A DNA stretch of 36,275 nucleotides from Rhodospirillales bacterium (GTDB taxonomy: Bacteria > Pseudomonadota > Alphaproteobacteria > BOG-932 > Roseiterribacteraceae): assembly GCA_028291345.1 (NCBI GenBank), contig JAQGIF010000175.1:1-36275 (forward strand). Direction: 5' to 3'. Shown here one piece after another: positions 22,776 through 36,081 of this stretch (position 1 is the first letter of the stretch; each line of letters starts with the position of its first letter). Made by a program: the position numbers and the translations under genes. The notes beneath the pieces were generated by a model. It was not told where the DNA came from. It saw nothing but the letters and a program-made list of their open reading frames with translations, and made no database searches.

Positions 22776-23756
22776 TCAGAAGTCCGCCCCCACCGCTGCC
22801 TTGAATTCGCCGAGAGCACGCAAGCGGGCTTCGACACCGGTCCATTTCTTGCCAGTCGTGCGAACTCCCGTCTCCTCCGGCCCGAGATTGGCCCAGGGCG
22901 CGGTCACCCAATAGCGATTTGCGCCGAATTTCTTCCACCAATGGGCATAAGCGACGCATTCTTCCAGTGTCTGCGGCTGCTTCATTCCGGTCTTGGGCAT
23001 TGGGAAACGCGGATCGTAGAAATAGATCGCACCCTCGATCCCGATCGACGCGGGATCGCGCCCGGCCGCCACTGCGTGGCGTTTAATATTCTCCCAATCC
23101 GCGCCGATCTCTTCCGGATCCAGGCAGGGATAGTAAGGGAACCAGCCATCGGCCAGCTGCCCGGTCCTGCGCTGCGCCACCTTAGACTGGCCACCCAGCC
23201 AGATCGGGATCGGCTGCTGGGGCGGCAGCGGATTGATGCCCACATCGTTCAGCGTATGGAACTTGCCCAGGTAACTGACTGTCTGCTCACACCAGAGCTT
23301 GCGCATCACGACCATCTGCTCTTCGAGTATCTTGCCGCGGTCCTCGAAATTGACGCCTAGCCCCTCATATTCGACATCGTTCCAGCCGGCGGCGAGCACC
23401 AGCCGCAACCGACCGCCGCTCAAGATCGAAACCTCGGCTGCCTGCTTGGCGAGAACCGTCGACTGACGCTGGGGTCCGACCAGGATGCCGGTGGAGAATT
23501 CTAGAGACTTGGTGATCGCCGACATGTAGCCGAAGAGGACCATCGGCTCGTGCCAAGGCGTATGCACGTCATAAAGCGGAGCCTGACCGAGATAAGGTTT
23601 CCAGTCCGGCCGGTTGGTCAGGTCCGCGCCCAGAATGTGATCGCCGATCGTCACATAGCTATAGCCGAGATCCTCGACGCCCTGGAGAAATTCCGTGAAC
23701 GCTCCGGGATCGGTGCCGATCAGATGCTCCGGCATGCTCGTTCCAAGTTTCATCAT
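22776..23756 (-). CDS. Luciferase-like (LLM class) flavin/F420-dependent oxidoreductase
   Basis: A 326-residue (alpha/beta)8 barrel of the bacterial luciferase-like family, using reduced FMN or F420. Typical stretches are KLGTSMPEHL, YVTIGDHIL, the LSGGRLRLVLAAGWNDVEYE block and PIPIWLGGQSKVAQRRTGQL. Two adjacent ATGs (23756, 23753) are possible starts. It converges on the EamA gene (12 bases between stops) and diverges from the AsmA-like gene. Whether it is a monooxygenase or a dehydrogenase, and whether it uses F420, is open. The nearby flavin-reductase fragment at 25.8 kb is a conceivable former partner. Confidence 0.85.
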   Translation of the reverse strand: MMKLGTSMPEHLIGTDPGAFTEFLQGVEDLGYSYVTIGDHILGADLTNRPDWKPYLGQAPLYDVHTPWHEPMVLFGYMSAITKSLEFSTGILVGPQRQSTVLAKQAAEVSILSGGRLRLVLAAGWNDVEYEGLGVNFEDRGKILEEQMVVMRKLWCEQTVSYLGKFHTLNDVGINPLPPQQPIPIWLGGQSKVAQRRTGQLADGWFPYYPCLDPEEIGADWENIKRHAVAAGRDPASIGIEGAIYFYDPRFPMPKTGMKQPQTLEECVAYAHWWKKFGANRYWVTAPWANLGPEETGVRTTGKKWTGVEARLRALGEFKAAVGADF

Positions 23757-23962: not shown

Positions 23963-25786
23963 CTGTTCGTTCGCCGTATCGCACCCATCGCATTGATCGT
24001 CGTTCTGTTGCTTGCCGTGGGCGGCCTGTTCGCAGTGGGGCATTTCGATCTCGCCGCTCCGGTATCGCGCTATCTATCCCATAAGGTCGGGCGCAAGCTG
24101 GCCATCGGGTCGTTGCGGGTGACCCTGGGCAACCCGATCGCGCTCGAGGTTCGGAGCGTGTCGCTTGCGAACGTGAAAGGCGGCAGCCAGCCCGAGATGA
24201 TCGCGCTGGCATATCTCAAAGCCGAGATCGCGCCTTCGACGATCCTGTTCGGCCCTATGGTCCTGCGTGGCCTCACGATCGATGGCGCGGAAATCCTGCT
24301 TGAGCACGGGCCTGACGGCTACCCGAACTGGAAACCTGCTCCGCCGGCCTCGCGCATCTTGCCCAAACCAGAAGGCCGGCGCGTCATACCGGCGCTGCTC
24401 GATGCCCATTTCCACAATATCGAGATCGATGTCCGCACCTCCAGCGGCAACGTCCTGCGTACGCGGCTCAATGACGTAGCGGTCTCGGCCGTGACCCCTG
24501 ACAGGCCGGTCTCGATGATCGGCGACGGCAGCTATAATGGGATCCGAATCCATGCGGACATCGGGTTGCCGTCCTTCTCTGCTCTGCATACCAAGACTGC
24601 CAAACTCGCGGTCAAAATGAAGCTGATGAGCGGCACGACAAGCTTGGCGTTCGAAGGAACGGCTGCCGACCCGCTAGATGCCGATGGGGTCGACGGCCGA
24701 ATGATCCTCAATGCGCCCAAGCCACGGGAACTGCTGGCCCTTGCAGGCTTTACCGGGCAAATCGATCTGCCGTTAACCTTCGCGGGCGCCTTTTCGAGGA
24801 ACGACACGCTGTGGCGGCTGGTAAACGGCGCAGGCACGCTCGATGGCGACACACTCAGGGCCAACCTCCAGATGCAGGAAGGCGCGCGGCATCAGCCGGA
24901 TGCGATCACCATCGACACCGCTGTTAGAAATCTGGATCTCGACGCGCTGGTCCCTGCGGGCGATCCTAAGCAGCCGGTCGGCAAAATGTCCTTGCTCGTC
25001 GATCCCGATCCGGGCGCGGTGGTCGATGCCCATGTGGCCGCCGGCCACTTCGCGTATCGCACGATTCAGGCCGATGCCTTCGATTTCAAGGCTAAGCTTG
25101 CGCCCGGCCTTCTGACCGTCGAGCAGATCGCGGCGAACGTTGCCGGCGGTTCGGCCAAATCCCGCGTGACCATAACCCGGCGCAACGACAAGGGCGTCGT
25201 CGATTTCGACGGCTCGCTGAACGGTGTCGACGCCGCCAAGCTGGCGAAACTGATGGGCTGGGGGCCCTTGCCGGTAAGTGGCCCGGTTAGCAGCCAAGTG
25301 AGCGGCAGCATGACCGGGGCGACGTTATCGGAGGCGCGCCGCGTCAATCGTATCGTTGCCGTATTGTCGATGAGCGGCGGCACGATCGACAGGCATCTGG
25401 TCGGCATGGCGTCGACCGATGTGAGGTCGCTGTTCGGCGGGCGAACCGGCCTGAGCCAGCTCATATGCCTGCTGGCAGTCCTCGATCTGCATGACGGCGT
25501 GGGCACGATCGCACCGCTGACGATCAAGACGTCGGATGGAACAATCGTCGGTAGCGGCACCTACGACTCCTTGCACGACCTAATCGATCTGACGATCGGC
25601 ACCCAATCCTCCACGACGAGCTACTTCGCGCTCGATGTACCGGTTCGGATCAGCGGCCCGGTATCTGACTTCACCGTTCGTCCGGCTTTCGGCGCGTCGC
25701 GGGCCATGCAGCTTACCGGCAATATCGCGGATTTACCGGGCGATTTGCGGGCATTCGCCGCAAGCAACGCCTGCCTGGCACGTTAG
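23963..25786 (+). CDS. AsmA-family envelope protein
   Basis: A protein of about 607 residues: one N-terminal membrane span (IAPIALIVVLLLAVGGLFAV) followed by a long periplasmic beta-rich region. VSRYLSHKVGRKLAIGSLRV and LRGLTIDGAEILLEHGPDGY (then PNW) are AsmA signatures, and a C-terminal AsmA-like repeat is present (SLFGGRTGLSQLICLLAVLD). The family is linked to phospholipid transport to, and assembly of, the outer membrane. No ATG or GTG starts the frame early enough. A CTG at 23963 lies nine bases after AGGAG and keeps a basic RR before the span. TTG 23993 would remove it. ATT 23957 is a third candidate. Confidence 0.85.
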   Translation: MFVRRIAPIALIVVLLLAVGGLFAVGHFDLAAPVSRYLSHKVGRKLAIGSLRVTLGNPIALEVRSVSLANVKGGSQPEMIALAYLKAEIAPSTILFGPMVLRGLTIDGAEILLEHGPDGYPNWKPAPPASRILPKPEGRRVIPALLDAHFHNIEIDVRTSSGNVLRTRLNDVAVSAVTPDRPVSMIGDGSYNGIRIHADIGLPSFSALHTKTAKLAVKMKLMSGTTSLAFEGTAADPLDADGVDGRMILNAPKPRELLALAGFTGQIDLPLTFAGAFSRNDTLWRLVNGAGTLDGDTLRANLQMQEGARHQPDAITIDTAVRNLDLDALVPAGDPKQPVGKMSLLVDPDPGAVVDAHVAAGHFAYRTIQADAFDFKAKLAPGLLTVEQIAANVAGGSAKSRVTITRRNDKGVVDFDGSLNGVDAAKLAKLMGWGPLPVSGPVSSQVSGSMTGATLSEARRVNRIVAVLSMSGGTIDRHLVGMASTDVRSLFGGRTGLSQLICLLAVLDLHDGVGTIAPLTIKTSDGTIVGSGTYDSLHDLIDLTIGTQSSTTSYFALDVPVRISGPVSDFTVRPAFGASRAMQLTGNIADLPGDLRAFAASNACLAR

Positions 25787-25794
25787 AGAGTGGC

Positions 25795-26139
25795 TTGTTC
25801 CGGCGCCGGTGCTGTGATCAAGTCTACACGCAGGTTCGCCCTCAACTCCTGGGCAAGGATGGCAAGGGCCTCGCTTTCACCCTCTTCAAGCCGACGAAGC
25901 TGGAGGAGGGCAAGCCCTCCGTCCAAAGCTTCAAAAAAGGGCCTGACCGGCCGCCGGTCCAGGATGCGGCGATCGGCACGGTTGGATGCGCGGTCAAGAC
26001 TGTCGTCGAGGAAGGCAACCACCACATCGTCATCGGCAAGGTGATCAAGGCTCATCTGCTGAAGCCGATCGAGGGCCGCCTCGGCGCCGCGATCCTGGAA
26101 ATGAAGGATCTGGGAGACATGGTGTTCCACCGCGGCTGA
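25795..26139 (+). pseudogene. Flavin-reductase-like C-terminal fragment
   Basis: The forward frame has strong GC bias at third positions and reads AAIGTVGCAVKTVVEEGNHH then IVIGKVIKAHLL. It ends near DLGDMVFHRG. This resembles the second half of flavin reductase-type FMN-binding proteins (typical: DGALAWLDCEV...AGDHxIVIGRV...PLxYxRG). The N-terminal flavin-binding half (about 60-70 residues) is missing, and the frame opens only with a TTG eight bases after the AsmA stop, so it is probably a 5'-truncated leftover. A long opposite-strand frame here has no recognisable family. It lies at the end of the leftward SDR operon. Confidence 0.4.
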
Positions 26140-26143
26140 ACGA

Positions 26144-26905
26144 TCAGCCGAAATAAGCCTGTCCACCATCCAGCGGAAGCGTGAGCGCGGTAACATAACC
26201 AGCGTCCGGGCCGACCAGGAAAACCACTGCCCGACCAATATCCAGCTCGCTGTCGCCGATTCGGCCGAGCGGAATCGTCGACAGCATAGCGTTCGACCCG
26301 ACAGGATCGGATTCGACCCATTGCTCCAGCGCCGGGGATAACGCGAACGGGGCTATCGTGTTGACCCGGATTCCATCCTGCGCCCATTCGTGCGCCGCGG
26401 CCCGGCTGAGCGAGCGGATGGCCTGTTTCGCGGCTGAATAGACGCCATAGCCCCTGGCATCCCATCGCACCGGGGCTGAACTCGCAAGATTGATGATGTT
26501 GCCGCCCCCGCGCCCCTTCAGGTACGGGCGAACGGCTTTCATGAAACGGAATGTAGCGAACGGCCCGGAATCGAACACTTCGACAAAAGCCTCGTCATCG
26601 AGATTGTCCAGCAGGTCATTGCGGACGATCTGTGCGTTGTTTACCAGAATATCGATGCCGCCGAAGGCTGCGAGGGTCCGTTGGACGGCGTTGGCGATAT
26701 CGGACGGATTGCGGACATCGCAGACGATCGGGATTGCCCGGCTGCCGGCATCCTCTATTCGTGCGCAGACCCGCGCCAGTTTCGCCTTTGTACGGCCGGC
26801 AGCGGCGATCGCCGCCCCTTCTTTGGCGAGCGCCAGCGCGATCCCCTCACCAACGCCCTGCCCCGCGCCTGTGACGATCGCGACTTTGCCATCCAACTGG
26901 CCCAT
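26144..26905 (-). CDS. Short-chain dehydrogenase/reductase
   Basis: A 253-residue classical SDR, an NAD(P)-dependent alcohol or keto oxidoreductase. The cofactor motif is TGAGQGVGEG (residues 12-21). The usual NNAG appears as NNAQ (89-92), a variant at the adenine-side loop. The catalytic triad is visible as the Ser in NLASSAP (about 142-143) and YSAAK (Y156, K160). The C-terminus ends LTLPLDGGQAYFG, as in FabG-like members. ATG 26905 begins MGQLDGKVAIVTG; a longer frame upstream is an overlap with the previous gene. It is the last gene of the leftward oxidative set and probably oxidises or reduces a hydroxylated intermediate. Confidence 0.9.
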   Translation of the reverse strand: MGQLDGKVAIVTGAGQGVGEGIALALAKEGAAIAAAGRTKAKLARVCARIEDAGSRAIPIVCDVRNPSDIANAVQRTLAAFGGIDILVNNAQIVRNDLLDNLDDEAFVEVFDSGPFATFRFMKAVRPYLKGRGGGNIINLASSAPVRWDARGYGVYSAAKQAIRSLSRAAAHEWAQDGIRVNTIAPFALSPALEQWVESDPVGSNAMLSTIPLGRIGDSELDIGRAVVFLVGPDAGYVTALTLPLDGGQAYFG

Positions 26906-26910
26906 CGTGG

Positions 26911-27336
26911 CTAAAGCCCGATGGCCTTCAGCGCTGCCAGCGCGACATCCTCGTCGATTTCCTGGTTCGCGCCCGAAACGCCGATTCCACCCAGCACCAT
27001 TCCGTCCTTGATCACTGGATGTCCGCCCTTGGCGGCGACATAGCCGGGGATCGAATCGATGATCTTTTGCTCCGAGACCGGGATCGAATTCACATAAACC
27101 TCCCACTGCCCAGTCGACATGCCGGTATTCACCGCGGTGAAGGCCTTCCGGTTGGCGGTAGTCTCCGCGATACGCGCCGTGCCGGGAAAACTGATGAAGC
27201 CGGCCAGGTTGGTGGCGTGGTCCAGGATCGTGATGTGAAGCTTCGCGTCTAATTCCTTGGCGCGGGCGACGGCGGCGTTCAGCATCGCCTGGATGGCATC
27301 GATCGAGAGGGTCGCGCGGGGAACGCCGATCTGCAT
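26911..27336 (-). CDS. HbpS/GlcG-like heme-binding family protein
   Basis: A 141-residue protein of the GlcG/HbpS (PduO C-terminal, DUF336) family. It contains AIQAMLNAAVARAKELDAKL, ITILDHATNLAGFISFPG, KAFTAVNTGMS and the glycine-rich end GGHPVIKDGMVLGGIGVSGA, which is the clearest signature. Some family members bind heme or degrade it; others act in cobalamin or catabolic pathways. AGGAG lies seven to eight bases before ATG 27336. It sits between a P450 gene and an SDR on the same strand with gaps of only 14 and 5 bases, so a heme-related role beside P450s is a reasonable inference. No signal peptide is seen. Confidence 0.88.
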   Translation of the reverse strand: MQIGVPRATLSIDAIQAMLNAAVARAKELDAKLHITILDHATNLAGFISFPGTARIAETTANRKAFTAVNTGMSTGQWEVYVNSIPVSEQKIIDSIPGYVAAKGGHPVIKDGMVLGGIGVSGANQEIDEDVALAALKAIGL

Positions 27337-27350
27337 GTCTGTCTCCTGCT

Positions 27351-28589
27351 TCAATGGCTGCGGGTGCGGTAGGAAAGGTGAAGCGCCTTGAGCGTACGCA
27401 GCGACAGGCCGGGGATATGCGACAAGGTCTCGTGACCCGGCGCCAGGCGGATGTCGTCGAAGGCCGCCAGCAGCGAGCGGAAAGCGGTGTAGAGTTCCAG
27501 CCTGGCATAGGGCGAACCGATGCAATGGTGGACGCCTTGGCTGAAGGCCAGATGCGTGCGGCCGTTGGGACGGCGAAGGTCAAACTTCCCGGGCTCGTCG
27601 AACTGCTCGGGGTCGCGATTGGCCGCCGCGAAGCGGATATGAACCATCGCACCCTTTGGGATTATCACGCCGCGCAACTCATAGTCCTGGACGGCGATGC
27701 GGAAGAATCCTTGGCTGGGCGATTCCATCCGCAGCACTTCCTCGACGAAATTCTCGACCTGGCTGGGATCGGCGCGCAGCTCCGCGGCGATATCAGGGTT
27801 CTGTGCCAGGATCGCCATACCGGCGGCGAGTGCGCTGGTCGCGGTTTCATGCCCGCCGACGATCAGATGCTCCGACAGGCCAACGATCTCCGACAGCGGC
27901 AAGGGCGCGCCTTCCCGCGTCCTGGCGTTTAGCATATCGGTCAGCACATCCTCGCCCGGATTGCGCCGCTTCTCGTCGAGATGCTTCATTAGATATTTTT
28001 GAAGCGCGACCTCCTCACGGGCGACGACGATCTCACGTTCCTCGGTCAGCCCGTAACTCAGCGGCTCGACCCAGACGTCCGACCAATGCTTGATCTGGTC
28101 GGCATCGGCATAGGGCACGCCCAGCAGGTTGGTGATGACCCGCATCGGTAGCCACCAGCAGAATTGTTGCATGAATTCGCATTCGGTCTTGCCGCGCATA
28201 CCATCTATCAGCTCGTCGACGGTGGCCTGAACGAACTCCGCCTGTGCCTTGACCCGTGCCGGAGAAAAGGCGTTGCGCACCGCGATCCGATAATTCGTAT
28301 GTGCGGGCGGATCGGTGGTGAATTTGGTATCGCGCGGAAAGCCCTCGGTTTCGAGGATTTCCTGCGCCGCCTTTCGTTTGATCAGCTGCGCAGCGGGCAA
28401 TCCGCGCATGTCCATCGACCAGATTTCCGGATGGGCGACGACAAATTGGATGTCCTTGTACTTGCTGATCACATAGGCGCCGATCTCAGGCATGAAATAG
28501 ACCGGGGCCTGCTCCAGCAAGGCATCATAGTAGGCGAATGGAGACTCCTGGATCTCAGGGTCCATTAGGCTGTGTTCCTGGATTTTCAT
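27351..28589 (-). CDS. Cytochrome P450 (class I bacterial type)
   Basis: A 412-residue soluble P450. The heme-thiolate loop is AFSQGVHHCIGSPYARLEL, with Cys 356. The K-helix ExxR is in FVEEVLRMES. The I-helix oxygen-activation motif is IVGGHETATS, with Gly-Gly-His-Glu-Thr in place of the more usual AGxD/ET. It has no fused reductase, so ferredoxin and ferredoxin reductase must come from elsewhere; none is encoded here. ATG 28589 gives MKIQEHSLMDPEIQESPFAY, the normal length before the first strand, although its ribosome-binding site is weak. It follows the broken dehydrogenase gene and precedes the HbpS-like gene in one leftward set. Confidence 0.93.
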   Translation of the reverse strand: MKIQEHSLMDPEIQESPFAYYDALLEQAPVYFMPEIGAYVISKYKDIQFVVAHPEIWSMDMRGLPAAQLIKRKAAQEILETEGFPRDTKFTTDPPAHTNYRIAVRNAFSPARVKAQAEFVQATVDELIDGMRGKTECEFMQQFCWWLPMRVITNLLGVPYADADQIKHWSDVWVEPLSYGLTEEREIVVAREEVALQKYLMKHLDEKRRNPGEDVLTDMLNARTREGAPLPLSEIVGLSEHLIVGGHETATSALAAGMAILAQNPDIAAELRADPSQVENFVEEVLRMESPSQGFFRIAVQDYELRGVIIPKGAMVHIRFAAANRDPEQFDEPGKFDLRRPNGRTHLAFSQGVHHCIGSPYARLELYTAFRSLLAAFDDIRLAPGHETLSHIPGLSLRTLKALHLSYRTRSH

Positions 28590-28624
28590 GTCGGCGCTCT
28601 TCGCGTTGTCGGGAATTGATCCAT

Positions 28625-28990
28625 CTAAAAACCCTCCGCGTAGGCCGCGATATCGACCACGTCCTGCGCGCCGTATGGCGACGGGAACAGCTTCGGCATC
28701 GGCGGTTTCGGAGTCTTGATCCATGCGGATAGTTGCATCGCGTCGATCCGCGCTTTGATGTCCTTGATGCTGTGCCCGGCCAAAGCCGTTCCGTCGGCGC
28801 CGTGACAGGCGACGCAGCTTTGCAGATACAAGGCCTTGCCGTGTGCGGCATCGCCTGGCTTCAAAGCGGCCTGCGCGCCGGGCTCGGACGCGATACCCGC
28901 GTGCCGGACCGCCGGACGGACGGCGTCTGTCACCGCCATGATCACCACTGTCGGCGGCCCCGCGCCGGGCTTTTCAGCTGGTGCCACCAT
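28625..28990 (-). pseudogene. c-type cytochrome domain, detached C-terminus of a quinohemoprotein
   Basis: The frame encodes a single-heme cytochrome c domain: GKALYLQSCVACHGADGTAL (heme site CVACH), the probable axial Met in KPPMPKLFPSPY, and the end DVVDIAAYAEGF. The segment before it, rich in Pro, Gly and Ala, looks like an interdomain linker, and there is no signal peptide. A c-type cytochrome must reach the periplasm to receive heme, so this ORF on its own would not mature. Together with the overlapping, frame-shifted PQQ fragment upstream, it fits a quinohemoprotein alcohol dehydrogenase whose middle was deleted near 28975-28990. Confidence 0.55.
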
Positions 28991-29817
28991 CTGAGCGCGC
29001 CGGTTGCCGCGTCCAGAACGACCAGAGAATCGGTGTAGAGGTTTTTCCCGGGACGAAATGCCGGGTTGAGCGCCGGAGCCGGATTTCCGACCGGCACAAA
29101 CAGCTCACCGGTCGCCGCATCCAGCGTATAGGAGGACCACATCGCGCCGCCGCCCTTCTGCACCGTATCGCTCACCTGCCAGCTTTCCGCCCCCGGCTCG
29201 TTGCCGGTTAGGATCGTATTGAACCACCAGACTTCCCGGCCGGTCGCGACGTCGAAGGCCATCATCCGCCCTTTGATCCCCAAATCGCCGCCGGCCGTAC
29301 CCATAAAGACCAGGTTGCGCCAGGCGATCGGCGCAGATGTCAGCGATTCTCCCTTGGTCGCGTCGGTGACAACGACATTCCACAAGACGCCGCCAGTTTC
29401 AGCATCCAGCGCCATCAGACGCTCATCGGTCATGCTCCGGAATATATTGCCCTCGAGAAAGGCCGCGCCGCGATTGACCGGCACCGATACGGGTCCTTTC
29501 GGCACGTAATCTGCCCGCCACCGTTCGGCGCAGGTCCGGCCGTCGAGCGCAACCGTTGTCGTCGGCCCGGTAACATAGATGACGCCGTCGATCACCAGCG
29601 GGCCGGCCTGGAATGCCCCGGGATCGGCGATCCTGGCGCCGCATATCTGAGCCAGGGCTTTCACATTCCCCTTATTGATCCCGGTCAGCGCGGAATAACG
29701 CTGCCCTCCGTAGCCCTTATTATAGGTCGGCCACTCGGCGCTGATCGTGTCTTTCGCCGAGCAGAGGCAGCCAAGCAGCCCGGCCAGAAGGGCTAATGCC
29801 GTCGCGCGCGATTTCAT
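28942..29817 (-). pseudogene. PQQ-dependent alcohol dehydrogenase, N-terminal half only
   Basis: 291 codons start at ATG 29817 with a signal peptide (ATALALLAGLLGCLCSA). The N-terminal blades of an eight-bladed PQQ propeller follow: EWPTYNKGYGGQRYSALTGI, GPLVIDGVIYVTGPTTTVAL, VATGREVWWFNTILTGN, SSYTLDAATGELFVPVGNPA. Family members have about 550-600 residues before any cytochrome domain. Here the protein breaks at LRWWHQL, where the family continues with an HDxHDWD-type stretch, and ends after a short shifted tail. The catalytic Asp region and about half of the propeller are gone, so the enzyme is probably dead. Confidence 0.65.
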
Positions 29818-29829
29818 TGGTGCGACCGG

Positions 29830-30423
29830 TCAGGCATCGGACCAGTCGAAATCCATCCGCTTGGCCGTGAACCGCCATTCGCCATTCAGGCGGGCGAACT
29901 TGTCGCTATAACGGCCACCGCCACCGATCGAGGGTGGACTGCCCCTGTCGATATGCAGCACGAAGAAATAGGAATCGGCCTCGGCGGTCCCCGCCACCTC
30001 ATTCACCGCGATGTGGGTGTTGGTATAGATATGCCGGTACATATGTTCGCCGGTGACGCCCGTAATCGGTTTCGACGACGCCGCCATCACCTCCGCCATC
30101 TTTTTTGCGACGCCTTCCGCGCCTTGCGCCCAGACTGCACCGTTGAGCTCCAGCGTTCCCTTTTCGCCGAATAGCTGCCCCCATTTCGCATAATCCGCGG
30201 CGTCCAGCAGAAACGAGTACATCGCCAGCAGATTGCGGATCTGCTCGTGCGCGGGTGCGTCTGCGCTGGTTTTCTTCAAGGGCTCGGCCATTGCGGTGGA
30301 GGCCAAACCGGCAAGCAACGTTCCCGCCACCGCGCCCTTCGTCAGGGTTCCGACCACTCCGCGACGGTTCATTCCGCGATCCGCGCGCTCTGCCGTTCGA
30401 CCGGAAATATCCTCCGTCCCCAT
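29830..30423 (-). CDS. Exported NTF2/SnoaL-like protein
   Basis: A 197-residue protein. A Tat-like or long Sec leader (MNRRGVVGTLTKGAVAGTLL, then AGLASTAMA) precedes a single alpha+beta NTF2-like domain. Its parts read HEQIRNLLAMYSFLLDAADY, FGEKGTLELNG, MYRHIYTNTHIAVNE, ADSYFFVLHIDRG and GGGRYSDKFARLNGEWRFTA. This is the SnaL-like_4/ring-hydroxylating-beta-like pattern often seen in aromatic or terpenoid catabolism gene sets. ATG 30423 is supported by GGGAGG six bases upstream. Catalytic residues of characterised dehydratases or cyclases cannot be assigned, so its role is open. Confidence 0.82.
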   Translation of the reverse strand: MGTEDISGRTAERADRGMNRRGVVGTLTKGAVAGTLLAGLASTAMAEPLKKTSADAPAHEQIRNLLAMYSFLLDAADYAKWGQLFGEKGTLELNGAVWAQGAEGVAKKMAEVMAASSKPITGVTGEHMYRHIYTNTHIAVNEVAGTAEADSYFFVLHIDRGSPPSIGGGGRYSDKFARLNGEWRFTAKRMDFDWSDA

Positions 30424-30450
30424 GACAATCCTCCCTGCTTGTCGGCTTAT

Positions 30451-30525
30451 TTAAATTAGCCGTTTTGCCGCCGTCACTTCACTCCGCCAGTGGGCTTGGT
30501 ACAAGCGCGATTTACGATCGTTCAT
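30451..30525 (-). CDS. Tiny ORF overlapping the P450 stop
   Basis: A 24-codon ORF starting at an ATG that overlaps the P450 stop (ATGA at 30525-30522) and ending TAA at 30451-30453, 27 bases before the NTF2-like gene. The peptide is strongly basic (MNDRKSRLYQAHWRSEV then TAAKRLI). The overlap invites coupled reinitiation, but no family or other evidence supports it. Confidence 0.2.
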   Translation of the reverse strand: MNDRKSRLYQAHWRSEVTAAKRLI

Positions 30526-31721
30526 GTCGAAATAGCAGCGCACGATACCATCAGTCTTTCTGGCGCCCGCACGACCGGGTTGTTGGCCCGCCAGCGGATC
30601 GGTTCTTCCAGCGCAAAACCGCAGCCGGCCACGAACAGCTCCTCGAACACCACCCGGGCCTCCATGCGGGCCAACCCCGCCCCCAGGCAGAAATGCGCGC
30701 CGCCGCCGAAGGTCAGCAGTGCCGAGGCATCGCGGTCGATGTCGTAGATATCCGGGTCGGCGAACATTTTGGGGTCGCGATTGGCGGCGGTGAAGGAGAA
30801 GAAAAGGTCGCTGCCGGCCGGGATGCGGACGCCGCCCAACTCGAAATCGACCGGAGTACGGCGCGTGGATGACGGAGCGGACGGGCAATGCCGCAGCGAT
30901 TCGTCGACTGCACCGGAAATGAGTGCGGCGTCGGCTTGCACGCGGCTGATCGCACCGGAATTTTCCATCAGTTCGACCAGCGTATTGGCGATCAGACCGG
31001 CGGTGGTGTCGATGGCGGCCGTCACGATCAGGACTGAATTAGCGATCACCTCAGCCTCGCTCAGGCATTCGTTCTGCTTGTCCGCTGAACTCAGCATATC
31101 GACGATGCCACCGGTCCTTTGCCCGCGCGACTGCTGTATCTTGTCTTGGAAATAGGGCGTCAGGCCCTGCACCGCCGCGAAGCCATCATGTCGATGGACG
31201 GTCTCGCCGAGGAACAGCGGCTCGACATGCGTGGCCCACTCCAGCGCATCGATGGCGAAAAGGTTGCGCACCACTTCGGAAGGCAGCTTGGAAGCAACGG
31301 CGGCAACAAAATCCGCCGGTCGCTGGTTGGCGGTTTCGATAAATGGACGAATGAGTGTCCGCGCGGTCTGCCGTATGATCGGCTCCAGTTGGGCGAGTGA
31401 CCGTGGCGAGAAGACCCGGCTGACCAGCCCACGCGCCAGACGATGCTCGTCACCGTTCAGCGACATCAGCCAGTTGCGGACGACCGATTCGACCGGGCTG
31501 TCCTGCCCGAATGCGGCGGAGACGCCACTGCCGGCGCGTAAAATCGGATTTCTAAGCGCGCTGTTGACCAGATCCCACTCGGTGACCAGGAACACGCCCT
31601 CGCCCGCATCATAGACAGGCGCGTGTTCGCGAATCCGTTTCCAGATCGCGAAATAGTCGTCCCGCACCCCGAGCTCCAGGATGCGCCAGCCGACAGGTAT
31701 CCCCAAAATATCGTTCGACAA
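30522..31721 (-). CDS. Cytochrome P450, second copy of a different subfamily
   Basis: A 399-residue soluble P450. The heme loop is TFGGGAHFCLGAGLAR (Cys 345), the K-helix motif is VDESLRHCPS and the I-helix reads IVTAAIDTTAG, with Ala-Ile-Asp-Thr-Thr matching the acid-alcohol pair. It clearly differs from the P450 at 27.4-28.6 kb, so it is not a recent duplicate. The only start that keeps the N-terminus (MSNDILGIPVGWRILELG) is TTG 31721, with a weak upstream site. It heads the leftward set and is divergent from the cytochrome P460 gene. No ferredoxin gene is nearby. Confidence 0.92.
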   Translation of the reverse strand: MSNDILGIPVGWRILELGVRDDYFAIWKRIREHAPVYDAGEGVFLVTEWDLVNSALRNPILRAGSGVSAAFGQDSPVESVVRNWLMSLNGDEHRLARGLVSRVFSPRSLAQLEPIIRQTARTLIRPFIETANQRPADFVAAVASKLPSEVVRNLFAIDALEWATHVEPLFLGETVHRHDGFAAVQGLTPYFQDKIQQSRGQRTGGIVDMLSSADKQNECLSEAEVIANSVLIVTAAIDTTAGLIANTLVELMENSGAISRVQADAALISGAVDESLRHCPSAPSSTRRTPVDFELGGVRIPAGSDLFFSFTAANRDPKMFADPDIYDIDRDASALLTFGGGAHFCLGAGLARMEARVVFEELFVAGCGFALEEPIRWRANNPVVRAPERLMVSCAAIST

Positions 31722-31755
31722 GAGTCCGTTGACCGGATGTGGTTAAGCGTGCAGG

Positions 31756-31777
31756 CATGCCTTAGAAACACGGCATG
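31756..31777. promoter_or_regulatory. Inverted repeat in the divergent P450/P460 promoter region
   Basis: CATGCC (31756-31761) and GGCATG (31772-31777) are perfect inverted arms with ten bases between, roughly one and a half helical turns centre to centre. It lies in the 109-base divergent region, a natural place for a shared operator. The symmetry is short and may be chance; no regulator gene is in the window. Confidence 0.25.
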
Positions 31778-31830
31778 GGCAAGGTTCATCAAGAAACCGG
31801 AGCAACCAACGAGTTTGGGCGGGGTGTGGG

Positions 31831-32400
31831 ATGATCCGTTTGTCGGCGGTTGCGATTGTCGCTTTGGGAGTATTTTCGCCGGTGTTGTCACTGGCCAAGG
31901 CCGCTTATGACGCCGACGGCAAGCTGCAATTCCCGAACGGCTATCGGAGCTGGGTCTATCTCTCGAGCGGCTTCAGCATGTCCTACAGCCCGACGCCTGC
32001 CGGCGGCGAAGTGTTCGACAATGTGTTCGTCGATGCCGATTCCTATAAACTTTTCGTCGAAACCGGGACCTGGCCCGACGGAACCGAACTGATGCTGGAA
32101 ATACGGAGCGCCGAGCAGAAGGGATCGATCAATAAGAGCGGTCACTTCCAGGGCACAGTCGCCCATACGGAGATTCACGTTAAAGATACCAGTCGCTTCA
32201 AGGACGGCTGGGCGTTCTTCGCCTTCGCCGATCAGGCATCGGCGACCGTGATCCCAACCTCCGCCAACTGCTATTCCTGTCATCAGGCACATGCGGCAGT
32301 CGATACGACATTCGTTCAATTCTATCCGACGTTGATGCCGATCGCGCAGGCGAAAAAGACGCTCAGTCCGGCCTATGTCGTGGAAGAAGCAAAACGCTGA
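31831..32400 (+). CDS. Cytochrome P460-family periplasmic heme protein
   Basis: A 189-residue exported protein with signal peptide (MIRLSAVAIVALGVFSPVLS) and a beta-rich domain of the cytochrome P460 family: FPNGYRSWVYLSS, FDNVFVDADSYKLF, WPDGTELMLEIRSA and the C-terminal heme site NCYSCHQAHAAVDTTFVQFY (C147, C150, H151). Characterised members oxidise hydroxylamine or bind NO; others are cytochrome c'-beta. A lysine in EIHVKD (K118) might be the candidate for the heme cross-link, which I cannot align reliably. It starts at ATG 31831 after a G-rich stretch. It is the first gene of the rightward set, with the dehydrogenase gene 25 bases downstream. Confidence 0.88.
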   Translation: MIRLSAVAIVALGVFSPVLSLAKAAYDADGKLQFPNGYRSWVYLSSGFSMSYSPTPAGGEVFDNVFVDADSYKLFVETGTWPDGTELMLEIRSAEQKGSINKSGHFQGTVAHTEIHVKDTSRFKDGWAFFAFADQASATVIPTSANCYSCHQAHAAVDTTFVQFYPTLMPIAQAKKTLSPAYVVEEAKR

Positions 32401-32425
32401 CGCGACGCACCCGAGGGGGAAATTC

Positions 32426-33361
32426 ATGAAGGCTGTTAACTATATCGGCGGCAAGGTCGCGCTGATGGATGTGCCGGCCCCGGCTGGGCCCGGGGTGCGG
32501 GTCAAAATCACGTCGGCCGGGATCTGCGGCTCCGATCTTGCGATCCTGGATAGCGGATTCGAGATCGCCGGCATTCCGGGTCACGAAATGGCGGGTCTGT
32601 TGGCCGACGGCACGCCGGTCGCGATTGAGCCCGTCATCCCCTGCGGTACTTGCGAATTCTGCCTGTCTGGCCACTACCAGGTCTGCCGCTCAGGTACCGA
32701 GCGCATCTTTGGCGTCGGCCGGAACGGCGGCATGGCCGAGGAGATCATCGTGCCGGAACGGTGCCTGGTCAGGCTGCCGTCGCGGCTGGATATCGGCACC
32801 GCCAGTCTCGTCGAGCCGTTGGCGGTGGCGGTCCACGGCCTGCGTCGCGCCGGTGCCAAGCCGGGCGACCGGGTGGTCGTTATCGGCGGTGGCACAATCG
32901 GGCTCTGCGCCGTCGCGGCGGCCGTCGCCATCGGCTGCAAGGTCAGTCTGGCCGCCCGCCACGATCATCAGAAGGCGGCCGGTGCGCAGCTGGGCGCTGA
33001 CGAGCCGCGCGGTGAGTACGACATCTCTGTCGACAGCGCCGGCAGCGTCTCAGGCGCCAGGGATGGCTGCGAGTGGCTGCGACCCAACGGCAAGCTGCTG
33101 CTGCTGTCGGCCTCATGGGAGGATGTCCGCCTGCCGGGATTGGTCTTGGCCTCGAAGGAGCCGGAGATCGTCAGCTCGACCATGTACAGCCAGGACGGCG
33201 TGACGCGCGATATCGACAATGCCGCCTATCTGCTCGGCAACAATCCGGTGATCGGCCAGGTGATCATCACCCACCGCTTCCCCCTCGCCGCCGCCGAAGA
33301 GGCGTTCGCGATGGCGCGCGACCGCAAGGCCGGGGTCATCAAGGTGCTGTTGGAGCCCTGA
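32426..33361 (+). CDS. Zinc-dependent alcohol dehydrogenase (MDR family)
   Basis: A 311-residue medium-chain dehydrogenase, slightly short for the family (about 340). Catalytic zinc ligands are in GICGSDLA (C34) and IPGHEMAG (H53, E54). The structural-zinc cysteines are in PCGTCEFCLSGHYQVC (C73, C76, C79, C87). The NAD(P)-binding turn is VVIGGGTIGL, and the segment after it is compressed, which accounts for the short length. ATG 32426 follows GAGGGGGA. It probably oxidises an alcohol or polyol intermediate in the cytoplasm, upstream of the isomerase-like gene that starts three bases later. Confidence 0.92.
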   Translation: MKAVNYIGGKVALMDVPAPAGPGVRVKITSAGICGSDLAILDSGFEIAGIPGHEMAGLLADGTPVAIEPVIPCGTCEFCLSGHYQVCRSGTERIFGVGRNGGMAEEIIVPERCLVRLPSRLDIGTASLVEPLAVAVHGLRRAGAKPGDRVVVIGGGTIGLCAVAAAVAIGCKVSLAARHDHQKAAGAQLGADEPRGEYDISVDSAGSVSGARDGCEWLRPNGKLLLLSASWEDVRLPGLVLASKEPEIVSSTMYSQDGVTRDIDNAAYLLGNNPVIGQVIITHRFPLAAAEEAFAMARDRKAGVIKVLLEP

Positions 33362-33363
33362 GC

Positions 33364-34182
33364 ATGCTAGAGTATTGTTTCGAAACGGTGAACTGGTCGC
33401 CCTATCTGGGTTTCGCGCGCCCCGACCTGACTGCGATGATCAAGGCGGCGTCGGCGACCGGCTATCGCTGGATCTCGTTCGACCTACCCAGTATCGCCTA
33501 TTTCGTCGCCAATGACGGAACGATCGAAGCATTGCGGGACCTGATAGAGGCGCATGGGCTCAAGATGCTCGCGGTCCATTCGCTGGCGATCAACAACGAT
33601 GTCACCGGGATCGAGATTCTCGCGCGCTCCGCCGTGGAGATCGGCGGCAAGCTCCGAGCGCTATATCTGCATGGCGGCGTAATCGCACCGATCGATGACA
33701 AGGTCATCGCGGCGACGCGGCGCGCCGACCGGATCTGCCGAGACGCCGGCCAAGAGCTGGCGATCGAGTTCCTGCCGTTCCTGCCCTTGGCGACCATCGG
33801 TCAGACCCACGACCTGCTCGACGCGGCCGGCGTCACCGGACGCAATTTCGTGGTCGATAGCTGGCACTTCTTCAACGGTCCGGACGGCCAAGGCCCGAAC
33901 GGCTGGGCGGCACTGGACAGTATTCCGGCCGACAGGATCGCCTATGTCCAGTTCAACGATCACGGGCGGATGGAAAGCGACGACCTTCTCTTCGAGACCA
34001 CCCAGAAACGGCTTATGCCGGGCGACGGTGTTTTCGATTTGAAGCAGTTCGCCGATCGCATTCGGGCTTCCGGCTTCGACGGAATTGTGGGACCGGAATT
34101 GCTGTCGAGCGCGACGCGAAACCTGCCGATAGAACAGTTCGCACGGCAATTGATGGAAACATCCGCGCCTTATTGGCGATAA
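33364..34182 (+). CDS. TIM-barrel sugar phosphate isomerase/epimerase-like protein
   Basis: A 272-residue protein of the AP-endonuclease-2/xylose-isomerase-like barrel superfamily (YcjR/IolE type). Metal-site segments are IEFLPFLPLATIGQTHDLLD (first Glu), VVDSWHFFNGPDG (Asp, His), YVQFNDHGRM (Asp, His) and GIVGPELLSS (last Glu). These give the usual E-D-H-E set for a divalent metal. It starts two bases after the dehydrogenase stop and 18 bases precede the PQQ gene, so it is one operon. The substrate could be a hydroxylated or sugar-like intermediate, and it is not specified by the motifs. Confidence 0.85.
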   Translation: MLEYCFETVNWSPYLGFARPDLTAMIKAASATGYRWISFDLPSIAYFVANDGTIEALRDLIEAHGLKMLAVHSLAINNDVTGIEILARSAVEIGGKLRALYLHGGVIAPIDDKVIAATRRADRICRDAGQELAIEFLPFLPLATIGQTHDLLDAAGVTGRNFVVDSWHFFNGPDGQGPNGWAALDSIPADRIAYVQFNDHGRMESDDLLFETTQKRLMPGDGVFDLKQFADRIRASGFDGIVGPELLSSATRNLPIEQFARQLMETSAPYWR

Positions 34183-34200
34183 AGAAAACGGAGAAGAGCA

Positions 34201-36081
34201 ATGCAGTTCGGCAAGATGGCCCGCGGCGGCTGGATGATGGTTTCACTGATGATCGCCGCCGGTTATGCGGTGCAAGCGCGCGGCGACAGCGATCCAGTCC
34301 CCTCGCCCAGCGCGTCGCAACCCGGCGCTGCGCTTTATGCCGAACGTTGCGCCCAATGCCATGACCACCCCGTCGACCGCATCCCGCCCCGCGCCTTCCT
34401 GTCCATCGTCAAGACGCCCGAGCAGGTCGTGACCGCGTTGAGCGCGGGCGTGATGCAGCCGATGGCGGCGGGACTCAACCCCGACCAGATCAAGTCGCTG
34501 GCAGTCTTCATCACGGGGAAGGAACCCGGGGCGACCCATGATCCCGACCCCGAAGCCAATCGCTGCGCCAAGCCGGCGAGTTCGATCGCACTCGGCCCGG
34601 ACGACTGGAACGGCTGGGGTCATGACTCGGGCAATGCGCGCTTCCAGGCGGACGCCGGGATCAAACCCGCCAATATCCCGCGTCTGAAGGTCAAATGGGT
34701 GTTCGCCTATCCCGGCAATGTGGCCGACGGCCAGCCGGTTATCGTCGGTGGCATGCTGTTTATCGCCAATCGCGCTGGCCGGGTTTTCGCGCTCAACGCC
34801 GAGACCGGCTGCACCTACTGGTCGTTTTTGGCTGAGGGCGGTGTTCATGCCGGCATCAGCGTCGGCGCGTTGCCCGACGGCAAATCCGCCGCTTATGTCA
34901 CCACCGAGAATGGCTATCTTCGTGCGCTGGATGCGCTGACCGGCGCCCCGGTCTGGACGACGCGGGTCGAAGATCATCCGGCGACGCGCCTCACTGGATC
35001 GCCAACTTTGTTTGACGGCCGGCTATATGTGCCCTTGTCGTCCCTCGAAGAGGTTTCGCTCTTCAACGCGAACTATGCCTGCTGCACCTTCCGCGGCGGG
35101 ATCGCCGCCGTCGACGCGGTAACCGGCAAGATTGTCTGGAAAACCCATACGATCGCACAGGAGCCGAAACAGATCGGCGTCAGCGCCTCGGGAACCAAGC
35201 TGTTCGGTCCGGCCGGTGTTGCCATATTCTCCGCGCCGACGATCGATCCGAAGCGCAAGCTGGTCTATGCGGGCACCGGAAATTCCTACACGCAGGACTC
35301 GATCGATACCGCCAACGCGGTCATCGCGTTCGATCTCGAAACCGGCGCGCGACGCTGGGTGGCCCAGGCGTTACCCGATGACAATGTCTGCCCTAAGGCG
35401 CTGAAGTCGGAGGAGTGCCCCCATACCGGCCCGGACTTCGACTTCGCCGCGCCGCCGGTTCTGCGCACGCTGCCGAACGGAAAGGAGATATTGGTCGCGA
35501 TCTCGAAAGCCGATGAGGCGTTCGGTTTCGACCCCGACCAGAACGGTAAGTTGGTCTGGCGGCAAACGCTCGGCAAGGGCAGCCGCACTGCCGGAGTTTG
35601 GGGTATGGCCGCCGACGCGACGCGGATCTATGTCGGCGGCGCCGACGTCCGCCCGCAGCCCGGGGTCACCGTCGGTGGGCTGAACGGCGTGGATATCGCG
35701 ACCGGGAAGCTCGACTGGCGCACCCCTGCCCCGCCGGCGGTCTGCGGCTGGGGCGACGCCCAAACCCCGCTTTCGATTGCCAACGGCGCAGTCGGTTGCT
35801 CACCGGCTCAGCCTGGCGCGATCGCGGCCATTCCCGGTGTGGTGTTCTCCGGGTCGGTTGATGGGCATATCCGCGCCTTCTCGAGCAATGACGGCACCAA
35901 GCTGTGGGATTTCGACACGGGCCAGCATTTCAAGGCCGTTAACGCCGACACCGCGATCGGCGGTAGCATCAGCAATGGCGCGGAGGCGGTAGCCAAGGGC
36001 GTGCTCTACGTGAACTCAGGCTCGGCCGGCGTGCATCAGCCGGGGAACGCGCTGATCGCCTTCACGGTCGACGGGAAATAG
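34201..36081 (+). CDS. Cytochrome c/PQQ-dependent dehydrogenase, polyvinyl-alcohol-dehydrogenase type
   Basis: A 626-residue periplasmic quinohemoprotein. A leader (GGWMMVSLMIAAGYAVQARG) is followed by an N-terminal cytochrome c domain with heme site CAQCH (C50-H54) and probable axial Met in VMQPMAAGL (M85 or M88). The PQQ propeller then follows from about residue 137. The order cytochrome first, propeller second, plus NYACCTFRGGIAAVDAVTG with vicinal cysteines C294-C295 and blades such as LVYAGTGNSYTQDSIDTANA, is the pattern of polyvinyl alcohol dehydrogenase (cytochrome). Members oxidise secondary alcohols and pass electrons to cytochrome c. It is the last gene of the rightward set. The substrate here need not be PVA. 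Confidence 0.92.
   Translation: MQFGKMARGGWMMVSLMIAAGYAVQARGDSDPVPSPSASQPGAALYAERCAQCHDHPVDRIPPRAFLSIVKTPEQVVTALSAGVMQPMAAGLNPDQIKSLAVFITGKEPGATHDPDPEANRCAKPASSIALGPDDWNGWGHDSGNARFQADAGIKPANIPRLKVKWVFAYPGNVADGQPVIVGGMLFIANRAGRVFALNAETGCTYWSFLAEGGVHAGISVGALPDGKSAAYVTTENGYLRALDALTGAPVWTTRVEDHPATRLTGSPTLFDGRLYVPLSSLEEVSLFNANYACCTFRGGIAAVDAVTGKIVWKTHTIAQEPKQIGVSASGTKLFGPAGVAIFSAPTIDPKRKLVYAGTGNSYTQDSIDTANAVIAFDLETGARRWVAQALPDDNVCPKALKSEECPHTGPDFDFAAPPVLRTLPNGKEILVAISKADEAFGFDPDQNGKLVWRQTLGKGSRTAGVWGMAADATRIYVGGADVRPQPGVTVGGLNGVDIATGKLDWRTPAPPAVCGWGDAQTPLSIANGAVGCSPAQPGAIAAIPGVVFSGSVDGHIRAFSSNDGTKLWDFDTGQHFKAVNADTAIGGSISNGAEAVAKGVLYVNSGSAGVHQPGNALIAFTVDGK

Follow-up and report, generated by a model that had tools for sequence, protein, structure and literature searches.

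Work on the P460 fold has, to our knowledge, been confined almost entirely to nitrifiers and methanotrophs. Another described relative of the locus reported here is the polyvinyl alcohol (PVA) dehydrogenase of Sphingopyxis 113P3, which carries an N-terminal heme c followed by a pyrroloquinoline quinone (PQQ) propeller. According to the sections of PMC11928373 used here, a lysine cross-link defines cytochrome P460 and its absence cytochrome c'-beta, with leucine among the natural replacements; all tested cross-link-deficient P460s were inactive on NH2OH, and peroxidase-like activity was recorded both for a c'-beta and for the Lys70Ala variant of NeP460. A hydrophobic pocket is typical of c'-beta, but a few members are polar (same sections), and a Lys70Tyr variant is described in part of PMC5872139 as lacking NH2OH oxidation reactivity. 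Here we analyzed a 36,275-bp stretch, contig C372 (the window), of the 5.63-Mb draft genome G000 (401 contigs, 97% complete, 3.9% contaminated), in which a P460-fold gene heads an alcohol-oxidation operon opposite a divergent arm with two P450 genes. We read this locus, with a probability of roughly 0.55, as a genus-level divergon for the oxidative catabolism of a hydrophobic compound, and the substrate as most likely a hydrophobic alcohol or a terpenoid- or branched-lipid-like compound.

Profile searches recovered every gene that a first-pass annotation of the sequence had named, at the same positions and on the same strands, with each family match well above chance, and the divergent gap measured exactly 109 bases as annotated. 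The principal features are:

22776–23756, minus strand: LLM-class (F420-type) oxidoreductase (TIGR03619, 215 bits against a cut-off of 166.9)
26911–27336, minus strand: HbpS/GlcG-like protein (PF03928, 6.9e-25)
27351–28589, minus strand: cytochrome P450 A (PF00067, 1.6e-29, 103.5 bits; heme motif FSQGVHHCIG)
29830–30423, minus strand: SnoaL_4/NTF2-like protein with a twin-arginine-like leader, judged by eye (PF13577, 1.6e-18)
30522–31721, minus strand: cytochrome P450 B (PF00067, 1.4e-26, 93.7 bits; heme motif FGGGAHFCLG)
31722–31830, no strand: divergent intergenic region, 109 bp
31831–32400, plus strand: P460-fold monoheme cytochrome c (PF16694, 2.7e-23, 83.1 bits against a cut-off of 27)
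32426–33361, plus strand: zinc-type medium-chain alcohol dehydrogenase (Zn-ADH; PF08240, 1.9e-15; ATG at 32426 after a GAGGGGG box)
33364–34182, plus strand: xylose-isomerase-like TIM barrel (PF01261, 4e-18)
34201–36081, plus strand: quinohemoprotein alcohol dehydrogenase with a heme c at the N-terminus and a PQQ propeller (PF01011, 5.4e-32)

To the right of the divergent region, the P460-fold gene is followed after 25 bp by the Zn-ADH gene, after a further 2 bp by the TIM-barrel gene, and after 18 bp by the quinohemoprotein gene. The left arm runs P450B, SnoaL-like, a broken PQQ dehydrogenase gene, P450A, HbpS-like and SDR, with mostly short gaps. Leader peptides, again judged by eye, were Sec-like in the P460-fold protein and the quinohemoprotein. 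Both P450s have the P450 fold and an intact FxxGxxxCxG heme-thiolate motif; annotated as unrelated, they proved instead to be distant relatives (24–27% in cross-matches). CYP125- and CYP124-type enzymes are among the best solved relatives of P450B, but hundreds of P450s match, and we dropped this likeness as a guide to the substrate beyond a hint.

For the sister species, genome G001, a tblastn comparison with the corresponding stretch (L032) revealed LLM-HbpS-P450A-NTF2-P450B on one side and ADH-TIM-PQQ on the other, in the same order, orientations and chromosomal site; the same two genes, pyrC-like and pyrE, stand ahead of LLM in both genomes. Identities to the G001 proteins were 90% for LLM (dN/dS 0.034), which there adjoins HbpS, 86% for HbpS-like (0.085), 88% for P450A (0.058), 78–79% for SnoaL/NTF2-like (0.068), 79–81% for P450B (0.072; TTG start in both species), 87% for Zn-ADH (0.047), 76% for the TIM barrel (0.102) and 72% for the quinohemoprotein (tblastn). 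All eight shared genes are open, without internal stops, and their ratios (NG86; rough, as dS exceeds 1 per site) range from 0.034 (LLM) to 0.102 (TIM), beside 0.053 and 0.022 for two neighboring pyrimidine genes. The eight genes are under purifying constraint. The annotated treatment of the two arms as a single locus is thereby upheld: they stand together, ordered and at the same site in G001, with operator-like palindromes in the promoter region that they share there. The module had been drawn at 25795–36081; its gene content stood, but the feature at 25795–26139 is a weak flavin-reductase-like fragment, and the LLM gene at 22776–23756 is a further conserved neighbor.

Beyond these two genomes the set was not seen. 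The source order is represented by five genomes in our collection, and the comparison sets comprised 385 genomes of the class and 398 of the phylum. The TIM barrel was found in 2/385 class genomes (G000 and G001) at E 1e-25 and in 1/398 phylum genomes at 1e-15; P450A was present in 19, the quinohemoprotein in 18 and the P460-fold protein in nine of the 385. In the third member of the genus, G002 (65% complete), neither P450A nor the TIM barrel was detected at the thresholds used. A survey that scored the best three to four candidates per genome, and in which paralogues could be missed, listed no P450A-PQQ pair within 20 kb outside G000 and G001, the nearest being ~23 kb apart in G271. Likewise, a search for a conserved P460-ADH-TIM-PQQ order, as the first-pass annotation had proposed, yielded no third genome. 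We therefore describe the module as genus-level, because the set was seen in no other sampled genome.

The P460-fold gene is where the two species part. A search of the G001 genome for P460 at E 1e-10 gave no match, and tblastn of the P460-fold protein against the G001 stretch returned none among the matches listed; the slot holds a gene of the fatty-acid-hydroxylase family (PF04116) and a TetR gene. At the DNA level, however, a 55-bp remnant (L032 9858–9912) is visible directly upstream of the ADH gene, in the same orientation and 78% identical to the 3' part of the window gene. Its local alignment score of 50 compares with maxima of 33 in 1000 dinucleotide-preserving shuffles and 28 in 500 simpler shuffles; in the rest of L032 the best tile reached 25 (excluding the two tiles covering the remnant) and the reverse strand gave 32. 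Read in one frame, the remnant yields DSVDTTIFRFYPTLPPIAHA, which resembles the conserved QFYP stretch of the family, and there is no CxxCH in the frames shown. We had considered the gene a pure newcomer in the window, and abandoned this on finding the remnant. Judged from these alignments, a P460 gene most likely headed the operon in the common ancestor and was lost in G001; because of the 55-bp remnant, it appears ancestral at the locus yet dispensable. The two-species comparison presents one slot that holds the heme protein in the window and, in G001, a gene of the fatty-acid-hydroxylase family accompanied by a TetR gene of its own.

The window protein carries a c-type heme motif (NCYSCHQAH), and its best PDB matches are P460 structures (7e-24). 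Aligned with the Nitrosomonas AL212 chain, it has Leu in place of Lys106, Glu at 131 and no counterpart of the Phe76 cap; position 131 is Glu in the reference chain, 6e17, as well, but Ala in native NsP460 (Table 2 in the available part of PMC11928373). The protein thus has the fold, CxxCH and distal carboxylate of a P460, but not the defining cross-linking Lys; judged by sequence, it has the P460-type fold, c-heme and missing Lys of a c'-beta, but Glu at the 131 equivalent instead of a hydrophobic distal pocket. Of the 18 natural sequences in the alignment, 14 keep the Lys. Four lack it (Leu in the window and in genome G356, Met in Mesorhizobium AR10, Phe in Thermus), and three of these, all except Thermus, keep the Glu. 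In a tree, the window, G356 and Mesorhizobium sequences grouped together (support 92/83, unstarred), apart from Thermus, with Mesorhizobium on a long branch. The window protein is better read as a putative Lys-less, c'-beta-like heme protein. The first-pass annotation had associated it with nitrogen-oxide chemistry; given Leu at the cross-link position and the decay of the G001 gene to a remnant, we discarded that role.

A bolder proposal, which we regard as a long shot, is that the Lys-less, Glu-keeping proteins of the window, G356 and Mesorhizobium AR10 form a third functional class of periplasmic heme peroxidases or peroxygenases; in the window operon such a protein might act on the organic substrate, or clear peroxide during alcohol oxidation by the quinohemoprotein, and might give way to other oxygenase genes, as seen in G001. 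If true, this would give the P460 fold a role outside nitrogen chemistry. Elsewhere, P460 genes had no alcohol-oxidation operon as neighbor: subtilase and sensor-type genes adjoin the G356 copy, and second P460 copies those of G301, G378 and G099. Around five plasmid copies (from six of 32 matching records, the sixth being unannotated), no PQQ or alcohol-dehydrogenase gene was annotated within 3–5 kb. The G356 locus (L096 9905–10543 and 10895–12610) holds the closest P460 relative (~54%, Lys-less), followed by a subtilase gene and adjacent to a gene for a protoglobin-MCP chemoreceptor, which hints at gas sensing. Tandem P460 pairs, with Glu at position 131 in one copy and Phe in the other, occur in three sampled genomes (L098, L099 and L100).

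The quinohemoprotein has CxxCH at 50–54 and PF01011 at 136–453, that is, an N-terminal heme followed by the propeller, and its heme domain scored 25.8 bits, just under its own 27-bit cut-off. Both CxxCH and a CC motif are invariant across an 18-sequence alignment; the CC pair (residues 294–295, CCTFRG in the window), present in 18/18, is a possible family hallmark. Active-site claims from a structure model were dropped, the model being too weak. A sibling module in G000 (L034, G000:C52, 1709–6592) encodes a quinohemoprotein 68% identical to that at 34201–36081, divergent from a Zn-ADH (55%), and also holds Asp/Glu-racemase, SDR and glyoxalase-family genes. For cofactor supply, G000 has pqqB, pqqC and pqqE adjoining an XoxF-like PQQ dehydrogenase and a RuBisCO large subunit gene (L108, G000:C287, 2856–13690), a gene set that would also be compatible with methylotrophy or autotrophy.

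Signs of regulation came from G001, where two TetR-type palindromes, TAAGACACTTGTCTTA (L032 8169–8184) and TAAGGCAGTTGTCTTA (L032 8201–8216), are located in the interval separating P450B from the fatty-acid-hydroxylase gene; the second extends to the annotated first codons of the latter. They are the sole matches to the pattern in the G001 genome, and there were none in G000, G002, G003 or G004. In controls, the reversed pattern likewise gave a handful of matches in each genome (1 and 3 for G001), and 6/200 shuffles of L032 reached two sites. The number of palindromes is hence unremarkable, and it is their 32-bp pairing beside a TetR gene that suggests operators; this arrangement suggests, for G001 only, shared regulation of both arms. 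The divergent region of the window has no palindrome of this type, and G000 has no close relative of the G001 TetR (best, 32%).

We infer each catalytic step, the substrate class and the role of the P460-fold protein as follows. The cytoplasmic P450A and P450B, with the nearby LLM oxidoreductase, would hydroxylate a hydrophobic compound, and the periplasmic quinohemoprotein would oxidize an alcohol group and pass electrons to the respiratory chain by way of the heme c at the enzyme's own N-terminus. Zn-ADH and the TIM-barrel enzyme could process the oxidized product further, and the exported SnoaL-like protein might isomerize or dehydrate it. The P460-fold protein would be dispensable, with an accessory task in binding gas or handling peroxide, and would be no hydroxylamine oxidase. 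We count in favor of this catabolic divergon the synteny with G001, the low dN/dS, the intact P450 motifs, the PQQ genes and the 14 G000 matches of the broken PQQ gene's fragment, the L034 pair, the catabolic neighborhoods of TIM-barrel relatives, and the residues of the P460-fold protein read alongside PMC11928373. The annotated combination of cytoplasmic hydroxylation with periplasmic alcohol oxidation thus stands as reasonable, whereas its polymeric variant found no support, the relative on the 113P3 plasmid lying outside the pva operon.

Several points weigh against this reading. No enzyme is linked to a substrate, and no observation singles out the annotated terpenoid, steroid or polymer. 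PQQ binding by the protein at 34201–36081 would follow from its family; the vicinal cysteines of 1yiq lie at another position in the alignment than the CC motif of this protein, and its structure model, although matching quinoprotein alcohol dehydrogenases, is weak (mean pLDDT 62.5). No PqqE was found above the cut-off in G001; the gene may have fallen into an assembly gap, or the species may import PQQ, as many Gram-negatives do according to part of PMC12124388. Regulation differs between the species, the G001 TetR and its palindromes being missing in the window. Finally, the SDR gene, the AsmA-like open reading frame (ORF) and the PQQ fragment are missing from the G001 locus, and therefore not everything nearby belongs.

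Two independent adjoining operons, one for P450s and one for alcohol oxidation, with separate substrates, are possible but in our view unlikely. A PQQ-ADH pair recurs alone in G000 (L034), and TetR-ADH-TIM-PQQ could be self-contained; nevertheless, the arms are together in both species having either, with the palindromes of G001 in the interval that separates the two. We also consider it improbable that the locus is a biosynthetic (tailoring) cluster instead of a catabolic one. The nearest solved relatives of P450A include tailoring P450s such as PikC, and biosynthetic pathways also include SnoaL-like and TIM-barrel enzymes, but quinohemoproteins of the periplasm serve mainly in respiratory oxidation, and no polyketide synthase, nonribosomal peptide synthetase or terpene cyclase was noticed among the window ORFs read.

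Even less credible is a true P460-type gene for nitrogen-oxide or hydroxylamine detoxification in an operon for a nitrogenous substrate. The PF16694 match, the P460 crystal structures as best PDB matches and the retained distal Glu, equivalent of the catalytic carboxylate, would fit, but the change of Lys to Leu, the lost Phe cap, the inactivity of cross-link-deficient P460s (in the sections of PMC11928373 cited above) and the decay of the gene in G001 all argue the other way. The degradation of PVA or another polymer seems to us farthest from the mark. It would account for the N-heme plus propeller architecture and for the 37% identity to a PQQ protein that the PVA degrader Sphingopyxis 113P3 encodes on its 243-kb plasmid; that plasmid gene, however, is outside the pva operon, which lies on the chromosome (PMC4611681, in part), no oxidized-PVA hydrolase was noticed at the window locus, and the quinohemoprotein family is broad (18/385 class genomes) with several paralogues in G000.

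The remaining features of the region are:

23993–25786, plus strand: AsmA-like ORF between LLM and SDR, named on sequence character only, no Pfam hit
25795–26139, plus strand: flavin-reductase-like fragment (PF01613, 21.6 bits, under the 27-bit cut-off), probably a remnant
26144–26905, minus strand: SDR-family oxidoreductase (PF13561, 4.1e-49)
28625–28990, minus strand: cytochrome c piece, C-terminal, in another frame (PF13442, 1.3e-7), aligning to the C-terminus of L105:7894-9747
28942–29817, minus strand: PQQ dehydrogenase, N-terminal half (PF01011, 1.6e-43)

The PQQ dehydrogenase of the left arm is indeed broken, as annotated. Its closest intact relative is the G001 gene L105:7894-9747, a C-heme PQQ enzyme of 617 aa (55%), compared with which it has an internal deletion of ~240 mid-gene codons and a frame change that leaves the cytochrome c end out of frame; 28625–29817 does not encode a complete propeller and heme domain in a single frame. 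The break may be an assembly error. At the G001 locus the gene is absent, and NTF2 and P450A are 37 bp apart. Searches with the fragment gave 14 matches in G000, one of them the fragment itself, with a further 11 in G001, two in G002 and none in the two sister-genus genomes. The intact relative belongs to a meta-cleavage locus (L105 4042–12707, G001:C24) with genes for an FAA hydrolase, an acetaldehyde dehydrogenase, a DmpG-type aldolase, a sulfotransferase and an amidohydrolase.

Open-licence literature on clusters of P460 and alcohol dehydrogenase genes, in the parts available, offered nothing beyond work on Tn7-like transposon cargo; it gave no PQQ/P450/LLM cluster and no SnoaL/steroid/P450 match in Sphingobium. 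The nearest annotated TIM-barrel relatives (~30%) lie in catabolic neighborhoods. On plasmid pNL2 of Novosphingobium aromaticivorans the relative stands beside genes for an LLM protein, an SDR, an amidohydrolase and a 'steroid Delta-isomerase' of the SnoaL type, and in Rhodococcus WAY2 beside LLM, ADH, amidohydrolase and thiolase genes; the LLM and ADH likeness to the window is only 21–25%, and the 20-kb stretches of both contain no quinohemoprotein, P450 or P460 relative. With the PVA dehydrogenase-type quinohemoprotein of Sphingopyxis 113P3, the window enzyme shares the order of N-terminal heme c and PQQ propeller. The locus differs from that system in its neighbors and in lacking the pva-operon partners (oxidized-PVA hydrolase, cytochrome c), none of which was noticed among the window genes read or at the G001 locus. 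For substrate screening, the locus gives defined candidates: two P450s and one quinohemoprotein.

Like cytochrome P460 of Nitrosomonas, the P460-fold protein has the fold, the heme motif and the distal carboxylate; unlike it, it has neither the cross-linking Lys nor the Phe cap, and its gene context is unrelated to nitrogen metabolism. With cytochrome c'-beta it shares the P460 fold (by sequence), a single CxxCH and Leu for Lys, as in Leu105 of the Nitrosospira NpAv c'-beta (PMC11928373, in part), but it keeps the distal Glu of active P460s, has P460s as best PDB matches and groups apart from the Thermus c'-beta. Its pairing of Leu106 with Glu131 resembles the engineered, cross-link-deficient K106L/A131E NsP460 described in the same source. 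A natural protein that, like this laboratory double mutant, unites a missing cross-link with the catalytic Glu, and does so in an alcohol-oxidation operon, would offer a clean test of the purpose of the cross-link and of the function of such 'halfway house' proteins.

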